Under the pieces are notes generated by a model. The model searched no databases and was not told the DNA's origin. It saw nothing but the letters and a program-made list of their open reading frames with translations. This document shows positions 3 through 62,160 of a stretch of 64,000 nt of DNA, piece by piece. This DNA is from a virus. The position numbers were made by a program, and so were the translations under genes. The DNA is taken from IMG/VR virus record IMGVR_UViG_3300022916_000006, positions 54,746 to 118,745 of that record; one strand, written 5' to 3'. Positions within the stretch are counted from its first letter, which is position 1. The number at the start of each line of letters is the position of its first letter.

Positions 3-1370
3 CCAAATGGTGAGTTAAGCTTAATTGATTTGGATGGTGTATATGATATTTCAGATTACAGTTTGATGAATTCACATAATGCAGAAATCAAACCAAATAC
101 ATTAAAAAAATATATACAACAAAAATGGAGTGATAAATATATGAAGCCAATTAGTTTTATAATACCAAGCAGAACAAATCTAAAATATTTAAAACAAGCA
201 TATAATTCAATAAGACAAAATCTACATCCAATGCATGAAATTTGTATTGCCGATGATGCTTCAACAGATGATACTTGGAAGTGGTTGACTGAAAAAGTCA
301 AAACAGATGTTAATTTAAAATTATATAAAAATGAAGGTCCAGATAGATTAGGTCACACAATATTATATGATACATTGGTGAATGAAATATCAACAAAGGA
401 TATTATCTGTATATTTCATGCTGATATGTATGCATGTAAAGGATTAGATGATGAGTTTATTAAATATCTAAAGCCAAGTGTAGTTGTGTCAGGTACTCGA
501 ATTGAACCACCATTACATCCAGACGGTCCTGAAAAGATAATAAAAGATTTTGGAATAGAACCAGAAGAATTTAAAGAAAGTGAATTAAACGATTTTGTTG
601 AAAATTTAAAAAATCAACATAGAACCAAATTAACAAATGGTATATTTGCACCCTGGGCTATGTATAAAGATGACTTTCAATCAATTCATGGACACGATCC
701 ATTATATGCCCCACAATCAAAAGAAGATTCGGACATCTTTAATAAGATGCATCTTGCTGGATATGATTTTATTCAGACTTGGAATGGTTTTGTATATCAT
801 ATGACATGTCGTGGAAGTAGATTTGCTGATGGTGCAAAGAGAAATCCAAATGGTGAAGTATTTATGAAAAATCGTGAGACTGATGAATGGTTGACTCAGA
901 ATAAAAAATCACATAGAAACTTCATTCGTAAATGGAGCTCAACGGTATTACATGATGCATATTTGAAACCAATAGTAAAGAATAAATATAATATTGGATT
1001 AGTAATATCAAATGCTAACTATGAATTAATTGAAATACTTGAACCATTCTTTGCAACATTATATGTAGATTGTGATTTTAAAATATATGTTGACAATGAA
1101 CAACCAAACACATTATATTCAATGATGGATAGAGTACAGAATATTGATGTTACACCACATAATGATATTGTTGTAGAATTCGATGCATCAAAATTAACAA
1201 ATGAATTGCTCAATGAATTCTTGATAAAATTATCAGATGTGATTGCAGATTCTGGTGAAATTGGTGAGTTCGAATATGAGATATTTAAAATAAAAATAAA
1301 AAGTGTTTCATCATATCAAAAAGATTTATTATATTATGATAACAATATAATCAATAAAAGAGCGTTTTAA
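3..1370 (+). CDS. Family 2 (GT-A) glycosyltransferase, 5' end outside window
   Basis: The reading frame is open to the left edge, so the gene probably starts before the window; the first in-window initiators (TTG 30, ATG 66) have no ribosome binding site. A GT-A domain starts near base 141 with the strand KPISFIIPSRTN, followed by DDASTDDTW (nucleotide-sugar site), an FHADMY segment where the metal-binding DxD motif is expected, and KEDSDIF for the ED motif region. About 130 C-terminal residues are of unknown type. It probably transfers a sugar to a phage structure, DNA base or host surface; the acceptor cannot be told. Its TAA overlaps the next ATG by one base (TAATG). Confidence 0.8.
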   Translation, partial: PNGELSLIDLDGVYDISDYSLMNSHNAEIKPNTLKKYIQQKWSDKYMKPISFIIPSRTNLKYLKQAYNSIRQNLHPMHEICIADDASTDDTWKWLTEKVKTDVNLKLYKNEGPDRLGHTILYDTLVNEISTKDIICIFHADMYACKGLDDEFIKYLKPSVVVSGTRIEPPLHPDGPEKIIKDFGIEPEEFKESELNDFVENLKNQHRTKLTNGIFAPWAMYKDDFQSIHGHDPLYAPQSKEDSDIFNKMHLAGYDFIQTWNGFVYHMTCRGSRFADGAKRNPNGEVFMKNRETDEWLTQNKKSHRNFIRKWSSTVLHDAYLKPIVKNKYNIGLVISNANYELIEILEPFFATLYVDCDFKIYVDNEQPNTLYSMMDRVQNIDVTPHNDIVVEFDASKLTNELLNEFLIKLSDVIADSGEIGEFEYEIFKIKIKSVSSYQKDLLYYDNNIINKRAF

Positions 1371-1645
1371 TGAAATATCCATGTTATATAGTCAAGATGA
1401 AGTCAACCAACAATATGGCGTTTAGTTGTAGTCCAGCATATTTAACCAAAGCATCAACAGGTGTTGTGACTGGTAAAATATGGATAGATTCTAATATTAA
1501 TGATGCTATTAGATTTGAAAGAAACGTAGATATAAAAAACTTACATAAACATGAAATTCCAATTAATTTATCAATATTAGTGGCTAAATATGGCGAACCA
1601 ATGAAAATAAATTCAGAAGCTGAATGGGTAGCAATGATGTTATGA
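1370..1645 (+). CDS. MKYYI-ELVA family protein, 91 aa (first of block 1)
   Basis: First member of the large paralogous family. Family architecture seen across the window: an N-terminal beta strand beginning MKYYI, a variable stretch usually with one Trp, a short strand plus an Ala-containing helix (PF.SYEDA or FKTK.EA), then a C-terminal strand and the tail S-E-x-E-L-V-A-x-L-L. This copy is divergent: MKYPCYIVKMK start, KIWIDSNINDAIRFER centre, an extra loop rich in Lys/Asn and tail SEAEWVAMML. Its start overlaps the glycosyltransferase stop; its stop overlaps the next start as ATGA. Function unknown. Confidence 0.8.
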   Translation: MKYPCYIVKMKSTNNMAFSCSPAYLTKASTGVVTGKIWIDSNINDAIRFERNVDIKNLHKHEIPINLSILVAKYGEPMKINSEAEWVAMML

Positions 1646-1860
1646 AATATTATATGATATATGATCCAGGTATGAGTGCCACCGAATTAAAATTTGTTTT
1701 TTATAATAGAGCATTGACTGTTTATAAATATACAACTGACTTTAGCAATAGTGATATTGTAGTATCAGATTCTAGAGATAAATTAAATAGTAATAGTGGT
1801 AAACGTTGGGGAAATGTTAAAGTATTTTCTGAAAATGAAATTATACCATATATATTGTAA
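1642..1860 (+). CDS. MKYYI-ELVA family protein, 72 aa
   Basis: Start taken at the ATGA junction (MKYYMIYDPG) rather than an in-frame ATG 18 bases upstream. Centre NSGKRWGNVKVFSENE, tail ENEIIPYIL. The Trp lies unusually close to the tail and the helix is poorly preserved. Ends with TAA, so the ATGA chain is broken and the next gene starts five bases downstream. Confidence 0.8.
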   Translation: MKYYMIYDPGMSATELKFVFYNRALTVYKYTTDFSNSDIVVSDSRDKLNSNSGKRWGNVKVFSENEIIPYIL

Positions 1861-1865
1861 AACAT

Positions 1866-2090
1866 ATGAAATATTATATTATAAGACCCAAGACAGATAT
1901 AAAAAATCCATATATTGCCCAAATGTCTAAGAATGATTATTATGCTACCCGTAATGTTGAAGACATTGTATCATTTAAAACCAAGTCTGAAGCTCAAAGA
2001 GTGATAGCACATGAAAGTATGAGGTATCCTGAGTTCTGGTGTGATGCTTATGTGATAGATGAAAATGAACTGATACCCCATCTGTTATGA
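1866..2090 (+). CDS. MKYYI-ELVA family protein, 74 aa
   Basis: MKYYIIRPKTD start; VEDIVSFKTKSEAQRVI helix; FWCDAYVIDENELIPHLL end. Closest in-window relatives by eye are the next gene and the copy at 25795 (same FW.D/T...V.NENE arrangement). Overlaps the next start by ATGA. Confidence 0.85.
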   Translation: MKYYIIRPKTDIKNPYIAQMSKNDYYATRNVEDIVSFKTKSEAQRVIAHESMRYPEFWCDAYVIDENELIPHLL

Positions 2091-2317
2091 AATATTATAT
2101 TATACGAATAAGTGATAATGAAAACCATTACAAATATGTTATGACAAGTGGATCAGGGTTACATTATGGGGCATCACCAGACTATACAAGGATAACAGCA
2201 TTCAAGTCCAAAACACAAGCACAAAACATAATAACTGCAGGCTGTAAACGTGATATGAATTTTTGGCATGATATGGTGGTAGTAAATGAGAATGAATTGG
2301 TTGCACATATTTTATGA
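2087..2317 (+). CDS. MKYYI-ELVA family protein, 76 aa
   Basis: MKYYIIRISDNE start, ITAFKSKTQAQNIITAG helix and NFWHDMVVVNENELVAHIL end. Clearly a duplicate of its upstream neighbour with diverged middle, consistent with local tandem duplication. ATGA on both sides. Confidence 0.87.
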   Translation: MKYYIIRISDNENHYKYVMTSGSGLHYGASPDYTRITAFKSKTQAQNIITAGCKRDMNFWHDMVVVNENELVAHIL

Positions 2318-2568
2318 AACGTTATTATATTGTATGGAAATATGTTGATATTGATAAGAGTTCAGTTGGAAATTGGCTCTGGCATTATGCTTACATGCGT
2401 AAGTATGTAATTGATGATGAACATGATGTTTTTTATTGGACATTTAATATAAATGAAGCACGGGTTTTTAATTATAAACTTTATGCTAAATGGTACATGT
2501 GGAGTCGAAAACGAACAGCTCATATGTGTATATTATCAGAACAAGAATTAGTATTGAAATTATTATGA
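2314..2568 (+). CDS. MKYYI-ELVA family protein, 84 aa
   Basis: Trp/Tyr-rich member: MKRYYIVWKYVDID start, GNWLWHYAYMRKYV, FYWTFNINEARVFNYK and tail LSEQELVLKLL. The TFN.NEA.VFN motif matches the copies at 12341 and 16532. ATGA junctions on both sides. Confidence 0.83.
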   Translation: MKRYYIVWKYVDIDKSSVGNWLWHYAYMRKYVIDDEHDVFYWTFNINEARVFNYKLYAKWYMWSRKRTAHMCILSEQELVLKLL

Positions 2569-2777
2569 ACAAATATTATATTGTATATCGTGTTAGTAGC
2601 TCAAATGAGTACGTATATAGAGGATCGAATGGGTGGTTGAGTACAACAAATGATAGAAAAATTATACCATATGAATCATATGAACATGCTATGGTGGATT
2701 ATGTTGGGTTGCATTGGGATATAGCGGATAACACATCAATAATGGATGAAATTGAATTGCTTGCTAAATTATTATGA
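2565..2777 (+). CDS. MKYYI-ELVA family protein, 70 aa
   Basis: Start set at the ATGA junction (MNKYYIVYRV). Belongs by eye to the 'Y.G..GW.....IPYESYE.A' subgroup: YRGSNGWLSTTNDRK followed by IIPYESYEHA. Tail MDEIELLAKLL is a variant. A longer in-frame version starting inside the upstream gene is not preferred. Confidence 0.83.
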   Translation: MNKYYIVYRVSSSNEYVYRGSNGWLSTTNDRKIIPYESYEHAMVDYVGLHWDIADNTSIMDEIELLAKLL

Positions 2778-3088
2778 ACAAAACGCTCAAACCAAGAATA
2801 TATCCATATTATGTATTAAGATTAAAAGATGGTAAAAAAGGATATGCATCTCAAGTACATCATCGTAAAACATCTCACATATTTAGACGACAATTTGGAT
2901 CATTTAAACAAACAGTCAAGCGACCTAAGATAATACATTCAGTGGATATGTTGGAAGCTCATAAATTTAAAACCTTTATTGAAGCATATGCTATGTGCAA
3001 TATTAGTGTGAAATGGACCAATGAAGATAGTTTATATGATATAATTAAAATATCAGATGAAGCATGTGAAATGGTATATTTATTATGA
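2774..3088 (+). CDS. MKYYI-ELVA family protein, 104 aa, basic
   Basis: Longer, Lys/His/Arg-rich member (MNKTLKPRIYPYYVLRLKDG start), with HKFKTFIEAYAM as the helix and SDEACEMVYLL as a degenerate tail. The positive charge sets it apart from the mostly acidic relatives. ATGA at both ends keeps it in the translational chain. Confidence 0.8.
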   Translation: MNKTLKPRIYPYYVLRLKDGKKGYASQVHHRKTSHIFRRQFGSFKQTVKRPKIIHSVDMLEAHKFKTFIEAYAMCNISVKWTNEDSLYDIIKISDEACEMVYLL

Positions 3089-3327
3089 AACATTATATAA
3101 TATATAAAGATGAAAGAGATAGTGGATATGTTCAATATGATATTACGGCAAATTCTTATGAATTAACTAAAAATATTAATAATATTATTGGATTTGATTC
3201 CAAAAGAAAAGCACAATTTATGATTACAGAGAGAATTAATTATTGTATTAAGCGTGGGTATAATTATCACTTCTGGAGTTATGTAACAATAGTGACAGAA
3301 AGTGAATTGGTTGCATATTTATTATGA
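3085..3327 (+). CDS. MKYYI-ELVA family protein, 80 aa
   Basis: MKHYIIYKDERDSG start; NNIIGFDSKRKAQFMI helix; YHFWSYVTIVTESELVAYLL end. Standard layout with the FW pair before the last strand. ATGA on both sides. Confidence 0.86.
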   Translation: MKHYIIYKDERDSGYVQYDITANSYELTKNINNIIGFDSKRKAQFMITERINYCIKRGYNYHFWSYVTIVTESELVAYLL

Positions 3328-3566
3328 AATATTATATTATAGCAATAAAGGGTGATACAACATATTACAGATCATATTTCTTAAGGAGACATGAAGATAT
3401 ATATTCATACTGGTCAATAAAATTTAAAAAAGCAATAGAATTTATATCTAGGGATGAAGCAACTAAGTTTACAAAAACTCATAGCTATAAATATACAGTT
3501 GGTGTACCATCTATGAGTGATCTTAAAATTGTATCAGAAACTGAATTAGTTGCATATTTATTATAG
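3324..3566 (+). CDS. MKYYI-ELVA family protein, 80 aa (last of block 1)
   Basis: MKYYIIAIKGDTTYYR start, SYWSIKFKKAIEFISRDEA centre, KIVSETELVAYLL end. Stops with TAG, which ends the coupled block; the next gene has its own ribosome binding site. Confidence 0.86.
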   Translation: MKYYIIAIKGDTTYYRSYFLRRHEDIYSYWSIKFKKAIEFISRDEATKFTKTHSYKYTVGVPSMSDLKIVSETELVAYLL

Positions 3567-8208: not shown

Positions 8209-8219
8209 TATAAAATTAC

Positions 8220-8263
8220 TTGATAGATGTTATGATTTAATCGTAATTTTAAGTAGTTATGAC
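8220..8263 (+). promoter_or_regulatory. Phage promoter-like element
   Basis: TTGATA (8220-8225), 18 bp, TAATTT (8244-8249), then TAAGTAGTTATGACAGA. Fits the recurring bipartite consensus; the next gene at 8295 has an AAAGGA site. Confidence 0.6.
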
Positions 8264-8294
8264 AGATAAGAATTAAACAAAGGATAAAAATAAA

Positions 8295-8940: not shown

Positions 8941-9363
8941 ATGAAAGCTCGCTTAGTAACAAATCACGCTGTAGATTTTATATTAACTGCATTATTAATA
9001 ACATTAATTGGTGCATTTGTGATATCAATGTTTGCTGGTGATCCAGATGATTCTGTATATGCTAATAGTCCTGAAACCATTTTACAACCAACAACACCAA
9101 CAGATGTAAATGTGGTCACATATGATATGTCAATTGAAGTGACAAGACATAATGGTGATGTTGATACATTATCATATTCACATAGTACTAATAAATTATG
9201 GATTGATGGAAAAGGTGATCGTACATATTTAATGACATCATATCCAGAATCAGAAATTAACATTAAATACAATACTGATGAAAATGGTAAAACTGATACT
9301 TTATATTATGATCGAGTAGTATCATATGATGTTAAATCATATAGGATTCTATCAGCTGAATGA
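8941..9363 (+). CDS. Membrane-anchored exported protein with GDVDTL motif, 140 aa
   Basis: Start at ATG 8941 (MKARLVTNH), after the upstream stop. One transmembrane segment (FILTALLITLIGAFVISMF), then an exported beta-rich domain containing NGDVDTLSY and GKTDTLYYD. The 'GD.DT' repeat is shared with proteins at 40962, 41353 and 54493, forming a second paralogous family. Its stop overlaps the next array block (ATGA). Confidence 0.7.
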   Translation: MKARLVTNHAVDFILTALLITLIGAFVISMFAGDPDDSVYANSPETILQPTTPTDVNVVTYDMSIEVTRHNGDVDTLSYSHSTNKLWIDGKGDRTYLMTSYPESEINIKYNTDENGKTDTLYYDRVVSYDVKSYRILSAE

Positions 9364-9656
9364 TACGTTATTATATTTTAGGAACCCATATTAATGGTAA
9401 TGCTCCTGCTGGTATATATCTTGGTGATAACTTTTCAAGAGATACATATGGTAATGGAATAAGATGGAGTAAATTATCAACATGCCCATCTACTGTAGGT
9501 GATGTATCATTTAGTGCTGGATCATATCATATATTTAAAAATGAACATACAGCACAACAAAAATTAAATATGTTATTAAAACAAAAAAAGTTGAATATAG
9601 ATGCTTATAGTTTTAAAGTTATTTCAGACTCAGAGATGGTAGCATTAATATTATGA
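9360..9656 (+). CDS. MKYYI-ELVA family protein, 98 aa (start of block 2)
   Basis: MIRYYILGTHINGN start; AGIYLGDNFS, then IRWSKLSTCPS, a QQKLNMLLKQKKLNI helix and SFKVISDSEMVALIL end. It pairs with the 28284 copy: both share GIY.G, STCP/DSCP and the D.YSFKV ending. Confidence 0.85.
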   Translation: MIRYYILGTHINGNAPAGIYLGDNFSRDTYGNGIRWSKLSTCPSTVGDVSFSAGSYHIFKNEHTAQQKLNMLLKQKKLNIDAYSFKVISDSEMVALIL

Positions 9657-9985
9657 AATCTAAAAAATATTATATCGTAGACGTTGATAATGAAGCAAAT
9701 ATGACTGATATGAGTATGTTGTATGAAGTATATTATTATAAGAAATTACCATTCCCTACAAATAAGAACACTCCAATATTATACAGTAGTACATGGAGTA
9801 GTTGGCAATATGGTTATCGTATAAATAAATCAGACATATTTAATAGATCGATGGAATTGGATTCAAAAAAGAAAGCTGAGTTTTTAATAAACGAATTGAA
9901 AAAATTACAAGAGAATTTTGGTAAGAATATTGTTGCAATGTCAAGAGAGGACATTGAACTTAGATTGGTGATAGACGAATTATGA
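9653..9985 (+). CDS. MKYYI-ELVA family protein, 110 aa
   Basis: One of the longest copies: MKSKKYYIVDVDNEAN start, WSSWQYGYRINKSDIF centre, MELDSKKKAEFLINEL helix, and a diverged tail REDIELRLVIDEL. Shares the MKSxKYYIV start with its downstream neighbour. Confidence 0.82.
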   Translation: MKSKKYYIVDVDNEANMTDMSMLYEVYYYKKLPFPTNKNTPILYSSTWSSWQYGYRINKSDIFNRSMELDSKKKAEFLINELKKLQENFGKNIVAMSREDIELRLVIDEL

Positions 9986-10245
9986 AATCTGAAAAATATT
10001 ATATTGTATCTCAATTTATTGGTGATGCGTCTGCTATGGGATTTAATGGCGAATTTGATCGTATAGCTTGTTACGTTAATACAACAGCAACTTGGACTGG
10101 TAAGCTAAAGGACGCTAAACATTTCAATTCGAAAGATGAGGCTCAAAAATATTATGATGATGTTATAACAATGCCAGATGGATATATTGATCATATATTA
10201 AATACAGATGAAATTGAAGCCCTTAAAATAGCTGTAGAATTATGA
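9982..10245 (+). CDS. MKYYI-ELVA family protein, 87 aa
   Basis: MKSEKYYIVSQFIGDA start, ATWTGKLKDAKHFNSKDEA centre, tail TDEIEALKIAVEL. The EALKIA.EL tail variant also occurs at 12341 and 32144, so tail subtypes exist. ATGA on both sides. Confidence 0.83.
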   Translation: MKSEKYYIVSQFIGDASAMGFNGEFDRIACYVNTTATWTGKLKDAKHFNSKDEAQKYYDDVITMPDGYIDHILNTDEIEALKIAVEL

Positions 10246-10493
10246 AATGGTATGTATTCAATACGGGAGAATATGGTGAAGAAGATACTTATCGTGAAAT
10301 ATTTCTACATACTGGCAATGTTAATCTTAGTAGTGGATGGAGATGTCTACAATCTGTAATTGATGTGGATGGCATTTATCACTGTGAATTTAAAACAAAA
10401 GAAGACGCAATTGAGGCAATGGAAAATGCCACAGACAAACTACCAAGTGATATAGTTATTAATGGGTCAGAGTTAATGGTATATGTATTATGA
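10242..10493 (+). CDS. MKYYI-ELVA family protein, 83 aa
   Basis: MKWYVFNTGEYGEED start, EIFLHTGNVNLSSGWRCLQ, CEFKTKEDAIEAM helix, NGSELMVYVL end. Part of a 'MKWY.V/F...IHT...GW....C.FKTK.EA' subgroup with 10723 and 21999. Confidence 0.86.
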   Translation: MKWYVFNTGEYGEEDTYREIFLHTGNVNLSSGWRCLQSVIDVDGIYHCEFKTKEDAIEAMENATDKLPSDIVINGSELMVYVL

Positions 10494-10726
10494 AATGGTA
10501 TATTTTATGGAAACATGATGCGAGTGATATAACAGTTTTCGTTCGCAAAGTTGAAGACTTCAATAAAAGAAATAATCTATATTCAATAACTATGGAAATT
10601 GAAGACGCTCTAGTATTTGATACTGAGAATGATGCTCTTGATAATTTAGAGATAATGTGCGATGATAAAAATACAATTGGATATGAAGTAGTATCTGAAA
10701 CTAAATTGATTGCTATGATGTTATGA
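10490..10726 (+). CDS. MKYYI-ELVA family protein, 78 aa
   Basis: MKWYILWKHDASDIT start, EIEDALVFDTENDALDNL centre, VVSETKLIAMML end. The middle has no Trp after residue 7. Junctions ATGA on both sides. Confidence 0.84.
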   Translation: MKWYILWKHDASDITVFVRKVEDFNKRNNLYSITMEIEDALVFDTENDALDNLEIMCDDKNTIGYEVVSETKLIAMML

Positions 10727-10977
10727 AGTGGTATGTAGTTAATTCTGGGCGTTATTTTACTTACAAGGGGAAGCCAAAGATTGAAATACTTGTACACACT
10801 TTCAATATTAGGAATGGAACTGAAATTGGTTGGCAAGAGATTGAAGATATAGTTGATTTTGATGAGTGTGCTTTTAAAACAAAAGCTGAAGCAACTAATG
10901 CTAAAGCAACCAATACATATAAACAATCAAGTGATCTTGTCGTTAATGAATATGGATTGGTTGCATTTTTATTATGA
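10723..10977 (+). CDS. MKYYI-ELVA family protein, 84 aa
   Basis: MKWYVVNSGRYFTYKGK start, EILVHTFNIRNGTEIGWQEI, CAFKTKAEATNAKATN helix, VVNEYGLVAFLL end. Same subgroup as 10242 and 21999, sharing the HT..I..G.E..W pattern. Confidence 0.86.
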   Translation: MKWYVVNSGRYFTYKGKPKIEILVHTFNIRNGTEIGWQEIEDIVDFDECAFKTKAEATNAKATNTYKQSSDLVVNEYGLVAFLL

Positions 10978-11231
10978 AATGTTATATCATATATTACTCA
11001 CCTACTACGTTAGATATTGTTTCTTATAATAATAATAGCGAATATAAGAATGTCTTACAATGGGAAGCATATATAGGGTCAGGAGCTAAACATAGTATTA
11101 ATCCAAGGCCATATTTATTTAAAACCAAAGCTGAAGCTAAATTATGGTATAATGATAGAAGTAAAAATGAAAATAAATTAATGAACGATAAAATCATATC
11201 AGAAAAAGAATTAATGTTTTATTTATTATGA
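10974..11231 (+). CDS. MKYYI-ELVA family protein, 85 aa (last of block 2)
   Basis: MKCYIIYYSPTTLDI start, NPRPYLFKTKAEAKLWYND helix, IISEKELMFYLL end. The terminal ATGA opens only a 19-codon frame running into the next promoter, so the chain ends here. Confidence 0.85.
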   Translation: MKCYIIYYSPTTLDIVSYNNNSEYKNVLQWEAYIGSGAKHSINPRPYLFKTKAEAKLWYNDRSKNENKLMNDKIISEKELMFYLL

Positions 11232-11246
11232 ATGATAATAAAAATG

Positions 11247-11292
11247 TTTCATTGTATTATGTTTTATTCTTAAATTTAAGTAGTTAAGAAAT
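11247..11292 (+). promoter_or_regulatory. Phage promoter-like element
   Basis: TTTCAT (11247-11252), 18 bp, TAAATT (11271-11276), then TAAGTAGTTAAGAAATGA. Precedes an AAAGGAAACACACATG start at 11315. Confidence 0.65.
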
Positions 11293-11314
11293 GACAAAAA
11301 CAAAGGAAACACAC

Positions 11315-11584: not shown

Positions 11585-11794
11585 ATGAAATTTTATATTA
11601 TACATGTTAGTGAGAAGTTTGGAATACGATATGCGACTGCACGAATTACATGGTCGCTAGATTTTAGTAAGTCTTTATCATTTCCCACCCGTAAGAAAGC
11701 ACGAGATTATTACAGTGATAATTTAATTAAAATTGATCCATATTTTAAAAGAAAAATCGTAGCTGATGCAGAATTGACAATAATGAAATTATGA
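11585..11794 (+). CDS. MKYYI-ELVA family protein, 69 aa (first of block 3)
   Basis: MKFYIIHVSEKFG start, ARITWSLDFSKSLSFPTRKKA centre, VADAELTIMKL end. It abuts the zinc-protein stop (TAAATG) rather than overlapping it, so block 3 is presumably read from the 11247 element. Confidence 0.84.
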   Translation: MKFYIIHVSEKFGIRYATARITWSLDFSKSLSFPTRKKARDYYSDNLIKIDPYFKRKIVADAELTIMKL

Positions 11795-12072
11795 AATCTG
11801 AAAAATATTATGTGATATATCACAATAGACCACATGATTTTGTGTATGTGAGATCAGACGCCGCTAAGATACGAGATGATGATTTAACGATTATGACAAT
11901 TGATCCATTGTGGTCTAATTATTTTGATTGTGCTAAATCATTCAATTCGTATGATGAAGCATTGAAATGTGCAAATAAATTATATCATAAATCTCAGTTC
12001 AGAAGTGGTTATGATTATATGGATGATATTCATATATTGACAGAAGAAGAATTGGTGGCGTATGCAATCTAA
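11791..12072 (+). CDS. MKYYI-ELVA family protein, 93 aa
   Basis: MKSEKYYVIYHNRPHDF start, PLWSNYFDCAKSFNSYDEA centre, LTEEELVAYAI end. Ends with TAA, so the chain pauses; the next gene carries its own ribosome binding site. Confidence 0.85.
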   Translation: MKSEKYYVIYHNRPHDFVYVRSDAAKIRDDDLTIMTIDPLWSNYFDCAKSFNSYDEALKCANKLYHKSQFRSGYDYMDDIHILTEEELVAYAI

Positions 12073-12102
12073 TTACTAAAAAAATAAATTGGAGAAAGAG
12101 TT

Positions 12103-12336
12103 ATGAAATGTTATATATTTAATGAAAAATTTAAAGCATATCCATATTCTGGATTGGAATATGGATTGTGGTATAATGTGGATGATGTGAAACAAGGAAT
12201 GATGTGTTCTGGTAATCCAAAGTGCAGACCATTTAAAACAGCAAAAGATGCAGAAGATGCTATTCAAGAACGATATGGTGAAGTCTCATGGATGTATGTT
12301 GTACTGGAATCAAAAATAATTGCAGATTTATTGTAG
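12103..12336 (+). CDS. MKYYI-ELVA family protein, 77 aa
   Basis: MKCYIFNEKFKAYPYSG start, GLWYNVDDVKQGM, RPFKTAKDAEDAI helix and the diverged end LESKIIADLL. Unusually it has its own GGAG site (12091-12094), and ends in TAG. Confidence 0.84.
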   Translation: MKCYIFNEKFKAYPYSGLEYGLWYNVDDVKQGMMCSGNPKCRPFKTAKDAEDAIQERYGEVSWMYVVLESKIIADLL

Positions 12337-12340
12337 AGAT

Positions 12341-12565
12341 ATGGGATATTATGTGATAGCATATTCATTAACTTTAACTAATATGTGGTATAAAACAACA
12401 CCAGAATATAACTATTGGACATTTAATAAATCTCAAGCACTGGTATATAATACATCAACTCAAGCTGAATATGTTAAATCACAGAATACATTAACTAAAG
12501 ACTATGGGATACAAGTTGTGCGTGAGCAAGAACTTGAAACGTTCAAAGTTATGATTGAATTGTGA
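12341..12565 (+). CDS. MKYYI-ELVA family protein, 74 aa
   Basis: Start placed at ATG 12341 (MGYYVIAYSLT), five bases after the upstream TAG. YNYWTFNKSQALVYNTSTQA centre resembles 2314 and 16532; tail QELETFKVMIEL belongs to the longer tail subtype. Confidence 0.82.
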   Translation: MGYYVIAYSLTLTNMWYKTTPEYNYWTFNKSQALVYNTSTQAEYVKSQNTLTKDYGIQVVREQELETFKVMIEL

Positions 12566-12801
12566 TGAAGCATTATGTAGTATCAATGAGTGGTAATCAT
12601 TTACGATTTTATGTTACTAAAAAGATTGATAATAATAAATTAATTTGGATAGGTGGCTCAAATTTAAAAGACACCTCAATTCATCCATTTAAGACTAGAG
12701 AGGATGCTGTCAAGTGGTATAAATATTGTGATGTTAATACTAAAGAGGATAAATACGATAAAGTTGTATCAGATGCAGAATTGATGGTTATATTGTTATG
12801 A
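12565..12801 (+). CDS. MKYYI-ELVA family protein, 78 aa
   Basis: Junction is TTGTGATGAAG: the stop TGA overlaps a GTG (12562) and an ATG (12565); ATG gives MKHYVVSMSGNH. Centre IHPFKTREDAVKWYKY, tail VVSDAELMVILL. Confidence 0.84.
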   Translation: MKHYVVSMSGNHLRFYVTKKIDNNKLIWIGGSNLKDTSIHPFKTREDAVKWYKYCDVNTKEDKYDKVVSDAELMVILL

Positions 12802-13028
12802 AATATTATATTATATGCACAGACGATGCTAATAGTGATGTTGTTACGTATATTGAAGATACAACACATAGTAGGTATTCGTCTTCATTTTTAACTAACG
12901 ATGTATCAAAAGCTGTGGTATTTAATAATGAGAAATCAGCTATAGATTATATGCAAGCTGGGTTATTTGCCACATCAACATGTGATATTATTATATCAGA
13001 AAAAGAATTGATTGCAAGGTTATTATGA
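12798..13028 (+). CDS. MKYYI-ELVA family protein, 76 aa
   Basis: MKYYIICTDDANSDVV start, NDVSKAVVFNNEKSAIDYM helix, IIISEKELIARLL end. No central Trp. ATGA on both sides. Confidence 0.86.
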   Translation: MKYYIICTDDANSDVVTYIEDTTHSRYSSSFLTNDVSKAVVFNNEKSAIDYMQAGLFATSTCDIIISEKELIARLL

Positions 13029-13291
13029 AATATTATGTAGTTGATAAAAGTGACCGTGAAGATTTACCATTCATGAGCAATAGTTTTGAAATGTGTACGG
13101 ATGGTAAAGATCAATTTGATTGGTTTGGAAATGATAACATTGAACTGGTTGTACCATTTAATTCACATGAAGATGCTTTGAGGAATGTAGTTAAAGAGAA
13201 AATAAGACTAGCAAAATATTATGAAATTACTCCTTATGAACTTGATATTGAAATACTAACAGAAAATGAATTTGTGGCATATTTGATATGA
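13025..13291 (+). CDS. MKYYI-ELVA family protein, 88 aa
   Basis: MKYYVVDKSDREDLP start, FDWFGNDNIELVVPFNSHEDA centre, a long charged helix (RNVVKEKIRLAKYYE), LTENEFVAYLI end. Phe replaces Leu in the tail. Confidence 0.86.
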   Translation: MKYYVVDKSDREDLPFMSNSFEMCTDGKDQFDWFGNDNIELVVPFNSHEDALRNVVKEKIRLAKYYEITPYELDIEILTENEFVAYLI

Positions 13292-13506
13292 CGAAAAAGA
13301 AAAAACTCTATTATTATCTATATGATCCAGATGATACTCGATATACATATGGTGGTATTGATGAAGAGTGGGATGATAAATTATCATTGATAACACCATT
13401 TGATTCTTATGAAGATGCTGAAGAAGAACAGGTGAGTTGGTCAGAATGTCCAAATATGACAATAGAGTCAATGACAGAAGCAGAATATATAGCACTTATA
13501 TTATGA
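13288..13506 (+). CDS. MKYYI-ELVA family protein, 72 aa
   Basis: Basic N-terminus MTKKKKLYYYLYDPDD; YGGIDEEWDDKLSL and ITPFDSYEDAEEEQ; end MTEAEYIALIL. Member of the YDP.D subgroup, very acidic in its second half. The stop overlaps an ATG that opens only MKYI*; the real next start is 11 bases on. Confidence 0.86.
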   Translation: MTKKKKLYYYLYDPDDTRYTYGGIDEEWDDKLSLITPFDSYEDAEEEQVSWSECPNMTIESMTEAEYIALIL

Positions 13507-13513
13507 AATATAT

Positions 13514-13738
13514 ATGAAATATTATATTGTAAATACACGTAAATTTTTAATAACAAATGGAAGTGATAAGCGAGGTTATGCTTGGTCAACAGATATATCA
13601 CTAGCCAAAGTATTTAAAACTAAGAAGAGTGCAGAAGATGCTATGCGCATTCTTAGTACATGGTGGAATTTAACTTTTGATGATCAGGACCACAATTATA
13701 TACAAACTGAAGCAGAAGTGGTGGCAATGATATTATGA
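13514..13738 (+). CDS. MKYYI-ELVA family protein, 74 aa
   Basis: MKYYIVNTRKFLITN start, GYAWSTDISLAKVFKTKKSAEDAM centre, QTEAEVVAMIL end. The upstream junction has the duplicated ATGAAATAT sequence, leaving a four-codon decoy ORF before the true ATG. Confidence 0.85.
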   Translation: MKYYIVNTRKFLITNGSDKRGYAWSTDISLAKVFKTKKSAEDAMRILSTWWNLTFDDQDHNYIQTEAEVVAMIL

Positions 13739-14001
13739 AATATTATATATATAATACGACAAATATGAGACATCGATATCAAGGAATATCAGACTGGTGG
13801 TGCGAAATACCTGTAGATGGATACGACTCATTAACTAGGGAAATGATCATTGAGGAAAATACACATATCATACCATTCAATTCAAAAGGGGATGCACAAA
13901 AGAGGTTGGATCAATTAATAAAAAGTAATAGATATGGACGACAATTTACTGAAGATTGCATTGTAGTATCAGAAAATGAATTAGTGGTTTATATGTTATG
14001 A
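13735..14001 (+). CDS. MKYYI-ELVA family protein, 88 aa
   Basis: MKYYIYNTTNMRHRYQG start, DWWCEIPVDGYD, THIIPFNSKGDAQKRLDQL helix, VVSENELVVYML end. ATGA on both sides. Confidence 0.87.
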   Translation: MKYYIYNTTNMRHRYQGISDWWCEIPVDGYDSLTREMIIEENTHIIPFNSKGDAQKRLDQLIKSNRYGRQFTEDCIVVSENELVVYML

Positions 14002-14198
14002 AATATTATCTATTTGATACGGATGAAACGTATCATCAATATTGTGGAAAAAACAATAGCTGGTCTGGTATGTTTTCAGAAGTAATTCCATTTGATTCAT
14101 ATGAAGATGCAAAAAAATGTTATGATGATGAAACGTGGATGGAGTTTGAAGATATAATAATAATATCAGAACACGAATTAGTGGCGAGAATGTTATGA
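13998..14198 (+). CDS. MKYYI-ELVA family protein, 66 aa
   Basis: A compact, near-minimal member: MKYYLFDTDETYHQYCG start, NNSWSGMFSEVIPFDSYEDA, then IIISEHELVARML. Useful as the family core because every shared element is present with little between. Confidence 0.87.
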   Translation: MKYYLFDTDETYHQYCGKNNSWSGMFSEVIPFDSYEDAKKCYDDETWMEFEDIIIISEHELVARML

Positions 14199-14446
14199 CT
14201 AAATATTATTTAATAGCAATAGATAAAACAGATATAGATATGATATATGTATATACATCAGATATCGATGGTTATGTAAAATGGAGAAATTGGGCAATGT
14301 TAGAACATATTGATAAGGTAAATACTGATGTGCCATTACAAACTCTTAAAAAAAGATATAATAAACGAGGCATACATAAATTAAATAGAACTCAGTATAA
14401 TTTTGAAATAATGACAGAGGTTGAATTAGTGGCACTACTATTATGA
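14195..14446 (+). CDS. MKYYI-ELVA family protein, 83 aa (LIAIDK subgroup)
   Basis: MTKYYLIAIDKTDID start, MIYVYTSDIDG, WRNWAMLEHIDKVNTD, VPLQTLKKRYNKRG helix, FEIMTEVELVALLL end. Subgroup mates: 17359, 25350, 26040, 26969 and 31046, sharing 'L.AIDK..VYVYT...W..I....T..PL..LK'. Confidence 0.86.
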   Translation: MTKYYLIAIDKTDIDMIYVYTSDIDGYVKWRNWAMLEHIDKVNTDVPLQTLKKRYNKRGIHKLNRTQYNFEIMTEVELVALLL

Positions 14447-14697
14447 AGTACTATATAGTGGGAATTGCTGATGTGGTTGAACATACACGATATGCAGTGG
14501 ATGGTGGTATGGTAACTGGAGAATCAAAGTTTGGTGAATATAGGGGGTATAATGAATCATATGATGTTAAAAAATGTACTTCATTCAATTCATATGATGA
14601 TGCACTTAATGCTATGACCACACCTTGTGATAATCCAGACTTTTGGAATGGTATGAAAATAGTATCAGAAACTGAACTAGTGGCACTACTATTATGA
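14443..14697 (+). CDS. MKYYI-ELVA family protein, 84 aa
   Basis: MKYYIVGIADVVEHTRYA start, KKCTSFNSYDDALNAM helix, FWNGMKIVSETELVALLL end. The FWNGMKIV element links it with the FW subgroup (1866, 2087, 25795). Confidence 0.87.
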   Translation: MKYYIVGIADVVEHTRYAVDGGMVTGESKFGEYRGYNESYDVKKCTSFNSYDDALNAMTTPCDNPDFWNGMKIVSETELVALLL

Positions 14698-14906
14698 AGT
14701 ACTATGTATTATCAATATCTAAAAAATACCATGATATACTATATTGGTATGATAATAAACCCGTTAGACGATGGTTTACTTCAAAAAGAGAAGCTATTAT
14801 TTATTTAAATTTACTTAATAAAAAAGAACCAATACATGATGATTGGTATCGGGTTATATATGATGAAAATGAACTTAATGTATTATTGGTTGCTAAAGCA
14901 TTATGA
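14694..14906 (+). CDS. MKYYI-ELVA family protein, 70 aa
   Basis: MKYYVLSISKKYHDILYWYD start, VRRWFTSKREAIIYLNLL helix, tail DENELNVLLVAKAL, extended by a few residues relative to the usual ending. Confidence 0.84.
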   Translation: MKYYVLSISKKYHDILYWYDNKPVRRWFTSKREAIIYLNLLNKKEPIHDDWYRVIYDENELNVLLVAKAL

Positions 14907-15366: not shown

Positions 15367-15387
15367 AATGAAATGAAATGAAATGAA
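15363..15387 (+). repeat. Tandem ATGAA pentamer run at a gene junction
   Basis: Five consecutive copies of ATGAA span the junction. Each of the first four ATGs reads M-K-stop; only the last (15383) opens the next family gene. Probably replication slippage of the conserved ATGAAATA junction. Confidence 0.85.
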
Positions 15388-15586: not shown

Positions 15587-15593
15587 GATACAT

Positions 15594-19132: not shown

Positions 19133-19157
19133 ACACACAAACAAAGGAACTAAGCAC

Positions 19158-46483: not shown

Positions 46484-47362
46484 GTGAATCAATTAGTAAA
46501 ATATATTAATGGTAATACTACTGTTACAATAATGGAAGATGGCACAAAAATACGTGAGTATGAAGGTGATCCTATTGTAGAACATCCAGAAAGCATTGAT
46601 GTTAAGATCACAGATTATTGTGATATGGGATGTGAATATTGTCACGAAGGATCGTCGGTAACAGGAGCACATGCTGATTTGACTACATTGTATGAAACGT
46701 TAAAGATACTCCCGTCTGGGGTTGAATTAGCTCTTGGTGGTGGCAATCCATTATCACATCCGAATCTATTTGAGTTTCTTGTTAAATTAAAAGATCATGG
46801 TTTCATTGCTAATATTACAATCAACCAAAATCATATCACCAGCAATTTTGAATTGATATCAGATTTGATTAATCATAAATTGGTACATGGAATTGGTATA
46901 TCAGTGGTTAATAATAATTTCATCAATAGCATACATCGATTGTTGCAGTTAACAAATAATATTGTATATCATGTGATTGCTGGTATTAATGAGATCACTA
47001 TCATCGATGATTTAAATCGGATGGATGATAATTGTAAAATATTAATATTAGGATATAAAAGATTTGGTCGTGGTGATCAATATTGGAATGTTAAAACACA
47101 TTGTAATCTACATGCATGGAAACATAATATGCGTAAATATATTACAAGTGGTGTGATATCATTTGACAATTTAGCACTTGAGCAATTGGAGATCAAAAAG
47201 TTATTAACGGTTGAAGCTTGGGATCAATTTTACATGGGTGATGATTTTACATTTTCAATGTACGTTGATGGTGTGAAAAGAGAATATGCACCAACGAGCA
47301 CAAGTGAAGAAAGACGAATGCTTTTTTCAGATATGTCTATATTAAAATATTTTAATGAGTAA
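46484..47362 (+). CDS. Radical SAM enzyme, 292 aa
   Basis: GTG start behind AAAAGG. CDMGCEYCHE (Cys 46, 50, 53) is the CxxxCxxC iron-sulfur motif, followed by the GGNPLSHP SAM-binding strand (usually GGEP). The C-terminal half has no extra Cys cluster for SPASM. Substrate unknown: phage radical SAM enzymes modify nucleotides, peptides or RNA. The pairing with the FETNSSSTHS protein suggests a possible peptide or protein substrate, which is inference. It lacks the viperin signature CNYKCxFCF. Confidence 0.85.
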   Translation: MNQLVKYINGNTTVTIMEDGTKIREYEGDPIVEHPESIDVKITDYCDMGCEYCHEGSSVTGAHADLTTLYETLKILPSGVELALGGGNPLSHPNLFEFLVKLKDHGFIANITINQNHITSNFELISDLINHKLVHGIGISVVNNNFINSIHRLLQLTNNIVYHVIAGINEITIIDDLNRMDDNCKILILGYKRFGRGDQYWNVKTHCNLHAWKHNMRKYITSGVISFDNLALEQLEIKKLLTVEAWDQFYMGDDFTFSMYVDGVKREYAPTSTSEERRMLFSDMSILKYFNE

Positions 47363-47624
47363 ATATCATTTAATATTATATCCAATTGGGAGATTTGCAG
47401 AGTCAATAACAGAAGATTTTATGTCTGTTGTTTCATATCGAGCTAGAGACGATTGGTGTGGTGATGGGTGGTGGTGTGAAGATAAAACTTATGCTAAAAT
47501 ATTTAAATCAAAAGAGCAAGCATTACATGATCCAGCACAGAAAGAAGAAACTGTTGGACTTTTAGGAATGTCTATTGTTCCAGTTGATACTGCTGAAGCA
47601 TTTATTGTAGCAATGATGTTATGA
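47355..47624 (+). CDS. MKYYI-ELVA family protein, 89 aa (block 9)
   Basis: MSKYHLILYPIGRFAES start, DDWCGDGWWCEDKTYAKIF (three Trp and two Cys) and SKEQALHDPAQK helix, VDTAEAFIVAMML end. Overlaps the radical SAM stop by eight bases. Confidence 0.82.
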   Translation: MSKYHLILYPIGRFAESITEDFMSVVSYRARDDWCGDGWWCEDKTYAKIFKSKEQALHDPAQKEETVGLLGMSIVPVDTAEAFIVAMML

Positions 47625-47851
47625 AATATTACATATATGATCCACATGGATATTATGGAAAATTTGTTTATAGTAAAAATGGATGGACGGTGGATACAGT
47701 AGGTGCAAAACCATATAATTCATATGAAGAAGCTAAAGAGTATTTTGACGGGGCAGATTGGGGTGAGATGGAGACAGAAAATGGGATGCAGGAAATGAAA
47801 TATCATTACATAATATTAGATGAAAATGAAATTATACCATATCTATTATGA
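47621..47851 (+). CDS. MKYYI-ELVA family protein, 76 aa
   Basis: MKYYIYDPHGYYGKFVYSK start, NGWTVDTVGAKPYNSYEEA centre, ILDENEIIPYLL end. YDP.D subgroup; contains an internal MKYHYII that repeats the family start. Confidence 0.86.
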   Translation: MKYYIYDPHGYYGKFVYSKNGWTVDTVGAKPYNSYEEAKEYFDGADWGEMETENGMQEMKYHYIILDENEIIPYLL

Positions 47852-58571: not shown

Positions 58572-58847
58572 ATGAACATAGCACAAAAATTTATGGCTTA
58601 TGTCTTTAAATGGCAATATGTAAGATTGATACATGATTATCGTATGAATCAACCAGATTTAATTAGACGTGCGTATTCTATCGATGATAATTGGTTTGCT
58701 AATCCATATTTACCAAGTACAAGAGTACATTTAACATCTACTGGTACAGTATATAAAGGTAGATATATTATTGATTCTGTGAATTATGCTAGTTATATTG
58801 ATAGTTGGGAGCCAATTACAAAAGGTATGATTGCGTTGTATTTATGA
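58572..58847 (+). CDS. Probable divergent MKYYI-ELVA family protein, 91 aa (block 10)
   Basis: Start at ATG 58572 (MNIAQKFMAYVFKW), after AAAAAAGGATATTACATT; the longer frame reads through tRNA sequence. The N-terminus is unlike the family, but SWEPITKGMIALYL and an ATGA end fit. Middle: DDNWFANPYLPSTRVHL, YKGRYIIDSVNYASY. Possibly a distinct gene at the block head. Confidence 0.62.
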   Translation: MNIAQKFMAYVFKWQYVRLIHDYRMNQPDLIRRAYSIDDNWFANPYLPSTRVHLTSTGTVYKGRYIIDSVNYASYIDSWEPITKGMIALYL

Positions 58848-59062
58848 AATATTGTATTTACGATATAGTCAATGAGAAATATCATACCAAATATGGTAAA
58901 ATGTTTAATTATAAACATTGGCATGATGAATTGACGAGTGATGTACAATTGTTTGATTCATATGAAGATGCATTTGATCATTTAAATCATTGTGATATGG
59001 ATGATATAGTAACAATGATAAAAGAAGTAACAGATGCAGAAGCGGTGATAATGTTATTATGA
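58844..59062 (+). CDS. MKYYI-ELVA family protein, 72 aa
   Basis: MKYCIYDIVNEKYHTKYG start at the ATGA junction, KHWHDELTSDVQLFDSYEDA centre, EVTDAEAVIMLL end. The 'W...L.SDV.LFDSYEDAF' core is shared by the next copies of this block. Confidence 0.85.
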   Translation: MKYCIYDIVNEKYHTKYGKMFNYKHWHDELTSDVQLFDSYEDAFDHLNHCDMDDIVTMIKEVTDAEAVIMLL

Positions 59063-59280
59063 AATATTATATATATGATAACAAAGTAAAATTATATTTT
59101 AAAGAAATTGGATATTATGAAGAAGGTGAATGGTCGTATGATTTATCAATACGTGTTAGATTCTTTAATTCTAACATTGAGGCTCGAAATTACATGTTTA
59201 CGTGGTTGGAATATAAATGGTACAAACATCTAGAAGTGAAATCAATATCAGATGCAGAATATATTGTAAGAATATTATGA
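59059..59280 (+). CDS. MKYYI-ELVA family protein, 73 aa
   Basis: MKYYIYDNKVKLYFKE start, EGEWSYDLSIRVRFFNSNIEA centre, SISDAEYIVRIL end. The WYKHLEVKSISDAE strand matches 59277 (WYRDLEIRSISESA). Confidence 0.86.
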   Translation: MKYYIYDNKVKLYFKEIGYYEEGEWSYDLSIRVRFFNSNIEARNYMFTWLEYKWYKHLEVKSISDAEYIVRIL

Positions 59281-59531
59281 AATATTATATGAAATATTAT
59301 ATATATGATCGAGATGATCCTGAGGAAGTATATTATAATAAGTGTGATATCGATGATCGTAATTCAATGTTCCCCTCAAGGTGGTCCAATAAAATTACAA
59401 GTGAACTTAGATTATTTGATTCATATGAAGATGCTTTTAACTACTCACAACAATGGTCTGATAATATATGGTATCGTGATTTAGAAATAAGATCAATATC
59501 AGAATCAGCGTTTGTGGCAACCATATTATGA
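59277..59531 (+). CDS. MKYYI-ELVA family protein, 84 aa
   Basis: MKYYMKYYIYDRDDPEE: the start sequence ATGAAATATTAT is duplicated, giving a doubled MKYY. PSRWSNKITSELRLFDSYEDA centre, SISESAFVATIL end. A longer frame from inside the previous gene is not used. Confidence 0.86.
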   Translation: MKYYMKYYIYDRDDPEEVYYNKCDIDDRNSMFPSRWSNKITSELRLFDSYEDAFNYSQQWSDNIWYRDLEIRSISESAFVATIL

Positions 59532-59773
59532 AATATTATATAGTGGATAAGTATGAGGATGTAACTTCAATATATTATATAGGAAACCATCGTTGGTATT
59601 CTACATTAAGTAATAATATAAAATTATTTACAACTAGATATTATGCAAAAAAATATATTACATTGAATCTTAATGTTGTGCATCATATCTTTTATAATGG
59701 GATCATACATGGGAATGGTTGCTATGTGATAAAATCAATATCAGATGAAGAAGCTGTAATAACAAAATTATAA
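59528..59773 (+). CDS. MKYYI-ELVA family protein, 81 aa (last of block 10)
   Basis: MKYYIVDKYEDVTSIYYIG start, HRWYSTLSNNIKLFTTRYYA centre, SISDEEAVITKL end. TAA stop only eight bases before tRNA-Leu(CAA), so mRNA and tRNA must be separated by processing. Confidence 0.85.
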   Translation: MKYYIVDKYEDVTSIYYIGNHRWYSTLSNNIKLFTTRYYAKKYITLNLNVVHHIFYNGIIHGNGCYVIKSISDEEAVITKL

Positions 59774-60904: not shown

Positions 60905-61732
60905 ATGAAGAAATGTAAAAAATGTGGTGATGAATTTGAACCACGAAAAGGATTGATAAGTTATTGTTCTTTGTCATGTAGAAACACAAGAGTACATTCA
61001 GAAGAAACTAAAAAGAAAATATCAGATACGAATTCTGGTAAATATTTTGGAACATATGCATTACCAAAAAAATGTAAATATTGTGAAAAAGTATTAGTAG
61101 ATTATTTACGCAAAGCAAATACTTGTAATGGTTGTAAACCGTATGTTCTTAATATAAAATTATTTGAAAAATTAAATATACATGAAACTGATTTAGGTAA
61201 AGCTAACATATTAGCATGTGATAAATTAATTGATTTATATTATTCTAACAATAAATCATTAAGTGAGATATATGAAGAATATAATATACGTGGTAATACC
61301 ATATATTATTTTTTAAAGAAAAACGGAATACCACTACGGACAGTACGTGATGGAGTTAGATTAGCTATTGCATCTGGAAAGATAATAACACCAGTAAATA
61401 AACAATATAAGTCAGGTATACATACGACATGGTTTAATAAAGATATCTTTATGCGTAGTTCATATGAATTTAGATTTGCAACACATTTAGATAAACAGAA
61501 AGTTTTTTACCAATATGAGAAACAATTTGAATATTACTTTGATGATTTATATAGAACATATAGAGCTGATTTTTTTATTCCAGATTGGAATCTTGTGGTT
61601 GAAACAAAAAGTAGATACTATTATGAAAAAGATAAAAAAAAGATTGGAATACAAAGGCAAGCAGTGTTAGATTCAGGGTATGAATTTGTATTGTTATTAG
61701 ATGAAGATGAAATTGATAATTTTAATAAATAA
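60905..61732 (+). CDS. PD-(D/E)XK homing-type endonuclease inside split tRNA 1, 275 aa
   Basis: N-terminal zinc knuckles (CKKCGDEFEPRKG, YCSLSCRNT; CKYCEKV, CNGC) with a NUMOD3-like HSEETKKKISDTNSGK stretch; an HTH near residues 115-145 (EIYEEYNIRGNTIYYFLKKN). C-terminal nuclease: SSYEFRFATHLDKQKVFY, then YRADFFIPDWNLVVETKSRY, which supplies the D...ExK active site. Such proteins are phage homing endonucleases. Its TAA directly precedes the tRNA 3' half. GGAGAATTTATAAATG leader. Confidence 0.8.
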   Translation: MKKCKKCGDEFEPRKGLISYCSLSCRNTRVHSEETKKKISDTNSGKYFGTYALPKKCKYCEKVLVDYLRKANTCNGCKPYVLNIKLFEKLNIHETDLGKANILACDKLIDLYYSNNKSLSEIYEEYNIRGNTIYYFLKKNGIPLRTVRDGVRLAIASGKIITPVNKQYKSGIHTTWFNKDIFMRSSYEFRFATHLDKQKVFYQYEKQFEYYFDDLYRTYRADFFIPDWNLVVETKSRYYYEKDKKKIGIQRQAVLDSGYEFVLLLDEDEIDNFNK

Positions 61733-61778
61733 GGTCTTTTAAACCATTGGTCGTCGGGTTCAAATCCCACCGCACCTA
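61733..61778 (+). tRNA. Split tRNA 1, 3' half
   Basis: Starts immediately after the endonuclease TAA. GGT-CTTTTAA-ACC could be an anticodon loop (UUU, Lys) or part of a variable arm; then GTCGGG-TTCAAAT-CCCAC and CGCACCT acceptor half with A discriminator. Confidence 0.72.
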
Positions 61779-61783
61779 CAAAT

Positions 61784-61981
61784 ATGAAGTACTATATAAT
61801 ATCACATAGAGAAGATGATAAAGGTGATCCTCTAATATCTGATGCAATTGATTTAAATGAAGCAAAAGATTTATTAGCTGAAATTATGGATGCTTTTACT
61901 GGGAGTATAATTTTTCCAGATGCTACATCAGATGATTTTGAAATCGTTGATGAAAATGAAGCAGTGGCATATTTGTTATGA
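61784..61981 (+). CDS. MKYYI-ELVA family protein, 65 aa (block 11)
   Basis: MKYYIISHREDDKGDPLIS start five bases after the tRNA half, no Trp, AIDLNEAKDLLAEIMDA helix, IVDENEAVAYLL end. Acidic, compact, no ribosome binding site visible. Confidence 0.82.
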   Translation: MKYYIISHREDDKGDPLISDAIDLNEAKDLLAEIMDAFTGSIIFPDATSDDFEIVDENEAVAYLL

Positions 61982-62160
61982 AATATGTTTTAAAATATAC
62001 TATAGATGGTGAATATGTAAGTAAAGATTGTGATACTTATGTATCTAAAATGAGAGATGCTATAGTATTTGATTTAAAAGAAGATGCTGAATCTGAAGCT
62101 GGTGTGACGGAGCGTATAATCGAAATGACAGATGCAGAATATATAGTTAAAATATTATGA
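61978..62160 (+). CDS. MKYYI-ELVA family protein, 60 aa
   Basis: MKYVLKYTIDGEYVSKD start, KMRDAIVFDLKEDAESEA centre, MTDAEYIVKIL end. No Trp. ATGA on both sides. Confidence 0.83.
   Translation: MKYVLKYTIDGEYVSKDCDTYVSKMRDAIVFDLKEDAESEAGVTERIIEMTDAEYIVKIL

Follow-up and report, generated by a model that had tools for sequence, protein, structure and literature searches.

A tailed-phage array of about 93 paralogous small proteins with one predicted fold, variable loops and a fixed C-terminal tail

The "host takeover" region of Bacillus phage SPO1 is a cluster of small, presumably early genes that are mostly unrelated to one another. At the locus described here the genes are instead all of one family, and the only comparable array that we found in the literature is the zinc ribbon of Bacillus phage G. 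It is a lineage-specific expansion of about 35 copies, termed unprecedented in a survey of 224 jumbo phages, and its copies were proposed to bind different DNA or RNA elements (PMC7824862). Our family is likewise a small phage domain at tens of copies in one lineage, but it is another domain, present at about 93 copies (about 2.7 times the phage G family, from a record just 118.7 kb long); its genes form coupled operons and its proteins share a fixed tail. A zinc ribbon identity is rejected because paired Cys ligands are absent (Cys makes up 1.2% of the family and none is conserved). With many paralogues of one domain in arrays limited to two virus lineages within IMG/VR, the array is a phage lineage-specific expansion at extreme scale.

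The window that we analysed covers 64,000 bases at the right-hand end of a record of 118,745 bases (IMGVR_UViG_3300022916_000006) that comes from a tailed phage, with bacteria as hosts. An iterated HMM found 93 family members at E<1e-3 when all ORFs were counted and 89 in a non-overlapping set of + strand ORFs; one of 1,700 shuffled proteins passed the same threshold. Four further ORFs were borderline (E 0.004-0.05) and each has the family tail, and there is also a 46-aa ORF with an E of 0.034, so the original prediction of about 98 paralogues holds up. Clear members are 60-136 aa long and every one is on the + strand. The 89 members occupy 21,936 bases, or 34% of the window, in agreement with the predicted third. 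The tandem blocks are real, but they number twelve rather than eleven, between 1370 and 62160, and the largest have 29 and 24 genes (Table 1). To the left of the window, 54.7 kb of the record contain no family member apart from a single borderline ORF right at the window's edge. The large single-family array is thus confirmed.

Table 1. Coordinates of the family groups and associated features in the window.
Feature	Position	Strand	Details
Group 1	1370..2777	+	6 members: 1370, 1624, 1866, 2087, 2314, 2490
Group 1, last member	2490	+	probable start 2565
Borderline member just 5' of group 2	2774-3088	+	
Group 2	3085..3566	+	2 members
MoxR AAA + metallopeptidase-vWA (DUF2201) pair	5399-7855		between arrays
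Promoter-like site	8218..8267	+	TTG-N20-TAATTTT
Group 3	9360..11231	+	7 members
Promoter-like site	11245..11294	+	precedes 29-gene group
Group 4	11585..18306	+	29 consecutive members, ATGA overlaps in most
Modelled representative member	15383..15586	+	AlphaFold pLDDT 92.5, pTM 0.80
Promoter-like site	19087..19136	+	
Group 5	21445..22476	+	4 members
Promoter-like site	22968..23017	+	
Group 6	23394..29500	+	24 members; non-family ORF at 23686
Promoter-like site	23697..23746	+	from scan; 5' of 23 family genes
Modelled divergent member	26040..26297	+	pLDDT 81.5, pTM 0.69
Member with clear G001 orthologue	27420..27668	+	62% identity
Promoter-like site	29506..29555	+	
Group 7	30756..33793	+	10 members: 30756, 30992, 31434, 31700, 31911, 32144, 32365, 32907, 33309, 33548
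Group 7, member 30992	30992	+	probable start 31046
Group 7, borderline ORFs	31297 (46 aa) and 33790	+	
Promoter-like site	32622..32671	+	
Promoter-like site	34051..34100	+	
Promoter-like site	36691..36740	+	from scan
Group 8	39840..40634	+	2 members + borderline 40072
Promoter-like site	41852..41901	+	
Lone family member	45622..45939	+	
Family pair	47355..47851	+	2 members
Family group amid tRNA genes	58805..59773	+	4 members: 58805, 59059, 59217, 59528
Last family pair	61784..62160	+	2 members

The alignment has the KYYI start, the Trp, the F-S/T...A helix and the E-x-E-L-V-A-x-L-L end that had been noticed in the sequence. We modelled two members, and the models predict that the family is one fold with a constant b-b-b-a-b frame and a C-terminal helix. 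The representative has strand 3-6, helix 37-47, strand 55-58 and a tail helix at 59-66 (AlphaFold), and the divergent member has the same order of strands and helices with its tail helix at 77-84. The frame corresponds to conserved positions Y3, Y4, I5, Y15, W21, F34, A40, I56, V57, E59, E61, L62, A64 and L67. Between conserved positions there are three loops, whose lengths span 3-39, 0-27 and 1-21 residues. A constant tail with a variable middle, as anticipated, is what we see. The family has about twice as much Tyr and Trp as the other proteins of this phage. Net charge runs from -13 to +8 (median -2, median pI 5.9), and on this ground we reject uniform DNA mimicry; this composition and wide charge range would suit a variety of binding partners better than a single role in which all copies share a charge.

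The closest relative that we found is phrog_5247, a small protein of Drexlerviridae (Escherichia phages DTL and Rtp, rtp46-like). On the DTL protein (MG050172 34860-35108) the family profile scores 28.9 bits (E 5e-10), whereas the highest score among 300 shuffles is 8.8 bits, and one member from a divergent phage (G001) matches phrog_5247 at E 0.001. The best Foldseek match in BFVD was an 82-aa DTL protein of equal length (prob 0.97, TM 0.61, E 0.16), a match that was absent with the second model. The profile match covers positions 3-72 of 86 and not the tail, and the family core, tail excluded, is homologous to phrog_5247. That protein is single copy (119 places in 117 records), forms no arrays and is without the E-x-E-L-V-A-x-L-L tail, as against 93 copies here. 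It is a non-arrayed relative, but not one with an assigned role, and so does not refute the original reading. A similar case is a 190-kb IMG/VR contig, G010, where locus L040 encodes a single MKYYI protein whose core matches the profile at E 9e-6, again in one copy and tailless, in contrast to the tailed arrays here.

Other leads did not survive. Foldseek suggested ICP1 ORF65, but it scored 10.8 bits against 10.2 for its own shuffles; locus L216 was a false lead, and single-member and looser pattern searches gave chance loci. Searching 84,980 prokaryote genomes with the junction pattern gave 55 single chance matches and no arrays, and tblastn with one member against phage records gave no match. 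No family in Pfam, NCBIfam, PADLOC or PHROGs scored above cut-off, the weak matches being scattered over many families, and the PDB gave no match by Foldseek and none above noise. We found no defence or anti-defence match in the PADLOC, Pfam and NCBIfam models, libraries which contain few anti-defence proteins. DUF1033, NDUS4 (PF04800) and PARP3, in what we take to be its WGR region, place an aromatic strand, a Trp and an F-x-S/T-x-x-x-A helix in a similar order, but their profile matches were all below cut-off or insignificant and we treat this as resemblance only.

In 64 of 89 family genes the end overlaps the following gene by four bases (ATGA), compared with 14 of 80 other genes. A promoter motif with a constant TTG-N20-TAAnTT[TA] is present on the + strand at 12 sites from 8.2 to 41.9 kb, whereas the 92.7 kb to the left contain none. 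The same motif precedes the family array in G001. It resembles the consensus of the Bacteroidota primary (housekeeping) sigma factor, -33 TTTG / -7 TAnnTTTG (PMC7366714). The promoter model was built from ten sites, of which two fail in leave-one-out tests.

Our preferred but tentative proposal, which we find plausible but short of probable, is that the array encodes a library of small binding proteins, expressed early and coupled in translation, with target-specific loops and a shared tail. About 93 small single-domain accessory proteins would be made early in infection from host-type promoters, on polycistronic messages with coupled translation. The promoter type is the one observation that points to early timing. 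Each copy would combine the same small frame and fixed C-terminal helix with its own three loops. The likeliest role of these loops would be to bind a range of proteins from the host, from its defences or from rival elements, and the set as a whole would then help in the takeover of varied hosts. The copies, 93 versions of one frame, form a natural panel whose small size would allow joint synthesis and screening. Should they bind distinct host proteins, they would reveal phage targets in a group of hosts that has been little studied and would provide a new, small scaffold for binding; otherwise the array is a remarkable example of a gene family that has grown and been retained with no obvious use.

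The second possibility is close to drift: conserved gene ends would permit duplication and shuffling by recombination, the array would be maintained by its own mechanics, and most copies would be nearly dispensable. DNA similarity is indeed found mostly at the gene junctions, where it reaches 88% across 73 bases, and nearest paralogues are adjacent no more often than by chance. Tail codons are also biased, with Ser -10 being TCA in 81% compared with 40% in family middles, which is a sign of shared DNA ancestry or of a translation signal. However, we noticed no frameshifted remnants, and the copies keep their reading frame, frame residues and exact ends. There are no recent duplicates either. 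A BLASTP neighbour within the family exists for 83 of 89 members, with best identities of 25-51% over most of the length, and identity to the reference copy is 13-49% in the full alignment. The copies differ greatly, as had been noticed, with no pair above 51%, and given this and the chance-level adjacency we reject recent tandem duplication as the engine in this phage. G001 has 14 family members that pair with particular paralogues of our phage at up to 62%, indicating that individual copies are kept. It also has one tandem pair at 63% identity, with the N-terminal half most diverged. Diversification is old, with paralogues kept as separate lineages across phages. We consider the drift reading, with its near-dispensable copies, unlikely. 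The strong selection for diversity that had been supposed is not seen now: a near-identical record (99.93% identity over 75 kb) carries the same arrays with zero differences in the array genes, and dN/dS is about 0.45 for one clear orthologue pair, other pairs being saturated or noisy. This lack of current diversifying selection counts against the library proposal. A diversity-generating retroelement target was rejected, with no RVT_1 found in the incomplete records G000, G001 and G002 in a search that included positive controls.

The tail is the most fixed element. It is at the exact C-terminus in 89 of 89 members, with or without overlap by the next gene, and ends in Leu in 84 and Ile in 5; variants with a longer helix keep their last residues in register with the C-terminus. 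It is also constant in G001 and absent from the single-copy relative. These features would suit an adaptor library, in which each copy's loops would seize a different host protein and the constant helix would pass it on to a common machine, for example a protease of the host or the phage's own MoxR and DUF2201 pair, which sits among the arrays. We regard such delivery as quite unlikely. The tail is predicted to be an ordered helix whose acidic residues fit an N-capping box (S/T-E-x-E), so structure alone may explain part of the conservation of these residues and packing alone could account for the tail, and MoxR-vWA pairs of other phages have a proposed role in virion assembly (PMC7824862). 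The full version, in which about 93 interchangeable binders with variable loops and one constant C-terminal docking helix hand many host proteins to a single common machine, would resemble a recognition repertoire that sets variable loops on a fixed frame and is kept in the form of an operon; this we hold to be decidedly doubtful.

The constant frame and hydrophobic tail could also mean that any copy can stand in for another as a subunit of heterogeneous oligomers or of a coat, with packing through the tail helix, and coupled translation would yield them in similar amounts. We find this improbable, as shared packing surfaces would be hard to keep with so little identity, loops of 0-39 residues and widely varying net charge, and the single-copy relatives show that the fold can exist without paralogous partners. 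Regulators or nucleic-acid binders, with each copy on a different DNA or RNA element, are highly improbable despite the large small-binder expansions of phages (PMC7824862) and a very weak PARP3 resemblance (E 0.95), given the acidic median charge and pI and the lack of any match above cut-off to a known nucleic-acid-binding family.

An iterated profile found 89 members of the family in the non-overlapping ORF set (E<1e-3) and 93 when all ORFs were allowed, and only 1 of 1,700 shuffled proteins passed it. Beyond the 93 there are four borderline ORFs that share the family ending and one ORF of 46 aa. The 89 members, 60–136 aa long (median 79), fill 34% of the window, and every member is encoded on one strand. 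Identity reaches 51% in the closest pair of paralogues and lies at 25–45% in most best pairs, which makes the family old, with no fresh duplicates in this phage.

Given the paralogue alignment as input, AlphaFold produced a confident model (pLDDT 92.5, pTM 0.80) of the 67-aa member starting at 15383, with strands, a helix at residues 37–47, a strand at 55–58 and a C-terminal helix at 59–66. Member 26040, from a subfamily without the usual F-x-S/T motif, shows the same order of elements at lower confidence (pLDDT 81.5); this model is not fully independent of the first because family alignments fed both. Conserved positions map to the frame. Three connecting segments span 3–39, 0–27 and 1–21 residues, and the tail hardly ever departs from 13 residues.

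The profile matched a protein present once in Escherichia phage DTL (E 5e-10, covering positions 3–72 of 86, with the tail outside the match) and one protein in a 190-kb contig (E 9e-6), both far above their own shuffles. The DTL protein belongs to phrog_5247, whose function is unannotated, and has relatives in 117 phage records, mostly at one place each. From this core match we read the array protein as a known kind of small phage domain that carries a new helix at its C-terminus and has expanded about ninety-fold. A search with a junction pattern, whose exact matching diverged arrays would escape, detected arrays in two IMG/VR virus lineages and in none of 84,980 prokaryote genomes. The nearest published parallel we found is the Bacillus phage G zinc ribbon, whose approximately 35 copies a survey of 224 jumbo phages termed unprecedented (PMC7824862), although domain, arrangement and scale are all different. 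Neither the core domain nor the phenomenon is new, and we therefore consider the arrays a lineage-specific phage expansion and not a categorically new system.

A distant relative (G001, 57.5 kb) has 14 members, several of which pair with particular paralogues of the window: 27420 (62% identity), 59528 (41%), and 12798 and 17616 (38–43%), with tree support >0.9. This pairing indicates that the copies diversified before the two phage lineages parted and were maintained as separate lines. There was also local growth, with three 27420-like copies in G001. A tandem pair there (L024:9949-10451, 63% identity) has an N-terminal half far more diverged than its C-terminal half, which possibly shows how new copies diversify. 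For 27420 and its orthologue, dS is 0.50 and dN 0.22 (ratio 0.45); other pairs, nearly saturated in this AT-rich genome, gave dN/dS of about 0.35–1.0.

Most family genes are coupled: in 64 of 89 the end overlaps the following gene by four bases (ATGA), which is so for 14 of 80 non-family genes. A search upstream of the 89 genes gave no Shine-Dalgarno-like motif for 81. A promoter-like intergenic repeat was first spotted by eye, and 10 of its sites served to build a weight matrix. When each was left out of the model in turn, eight scored 23–47, and the two at 18772 and 22570 failed. Scanning added 23697 (score 20.1) and 36691 (38.2), against a top score of 14.2 in shuffled sequence. Strong + strand sites all lie between 8.2 and 41.9 kb of the window, and the scan found none in the 92.7 kb leftward (our record plus the left part of the near-identical G002). 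Of the two sites in G001, the one at 55483 (- strand) precedes the array. All sites have TTG or TTT, followed at constant spacing by TAAnTT[TA]. The elements recognised by the Bacteroidota primary sigma factor are TTTG near -33 and, at -7, TAnnTTTG (PMC7366714). On this sequence likeness, the host is probably a member of the Bacteroidota whose RNA polymerase would transcribe the arrays, which in turn would suggest early expression. G001 proteins carry GCTDPEA-type repeats, which, like missing Shine-Dalgarno motifs, fit a Bacteroidota host.

Our favoured, still tentative, reading is that the arrays are an early library in which many small proteins would each bind a different target. It draws on the constant frame, the variable loops, the enrichment of Tyr and Trp, the wide charge range and the long-term retention of separate copies. 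Drift by recombination is an unlikely rival, but the one that fares best. Over 75 kb, our record and G002 differ in 48 alignment columns, all at 19,682–20,552 in non-family genes, and not once inside the arrays, so we see no sign of current diversifying selection. The gene at 20180 has about 24 codons replaced through compensating indels, and just beyond this segment the two records diverge to 89%.

The last residue is Leu in 84 of 89 members and Ile in the other 5, whereas 8 of about 80 other window proteins end in Leu. Glu occupies -9 in 70 and -7 in 69 members, and Ala -4 in 58. The overlap does not force this ending, since the 21 members without an overlapping next gene end in Leu (20) or Ile (1). 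By eye, the helix is longer in about seven members, with the last residues still in register with the C-terminus. An adaptor version, in which the tail would dock on a common machine, seems improbable to us; the tail begins with S/T-E-x-E, which matches a helix-capping box, and part of its conservation may thus be structural. Several tail codons are more uniform than expected (Ser -10 is TCA in 81% versus 40%), the first codons of the genes are not, and DNA similarity among copies is concentrated at gene junctions. Tail-codon uniformity makes a DNA-level role also possible, either in initiating translation of the downstream gene or in giving the copies common ends for recombination. We give a mixed assembly of the diverse copies about as little credence as the adaptor, and think it quite improbable that the copies are nucleic-acid regulators.

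The window is positions 54746–118745 of a 118,745-base record, and from their ORF starts we take the genes to its left to be tailed-phage structural, replication, queuosine-type and sugar genes. G002 is 99.93% identical across 75.3 kb and reaches 37.9 kb further left, and another record (G006) has 35.7 kb in common at 100% identity.

Other features of the window
Position	Feature	Remarks
5399-7855	MoxR-type AAA protein, then DUF2201 metallopeptidase-vWA protein	pair also reported for group 2.2 jumbo phages (PMC7824862)
18862-18975	41-base near-perfect direct repeat	gene-poor gap between promoter-like sites
22617-22912	82% identical direct repeat (22758-22839 / 22818-22912)	around doubtful ORF, near promoter-like sites
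34092-36488	798-aa protein, no Pfam match	strong DNA repeats inside the gene (34915-35393); Microcystis phage Mel-JY01 and uncultured phage LR756508 (484 kb) have distant relatives at 28-31% identity
36767-37894	second AAA protein	weak CbbQ/NorQ match at C-terminus
46484-47362	radical SAM protein	immediately 5' of two family members (47355, 47621)
51777-52745	Zeta-toxin/AAA_33 kinase fused to NT5C-like phosphatase match	
52748-54208	nicotinamide phosphoribosyltransferase	adjoins the kinase gene
57464-62844	twelve tRNA genes	family members interspersed
60905-61732, 62921-63877	proteins resembling homing-endonuclease relatives (by eye)	near tRNA genes
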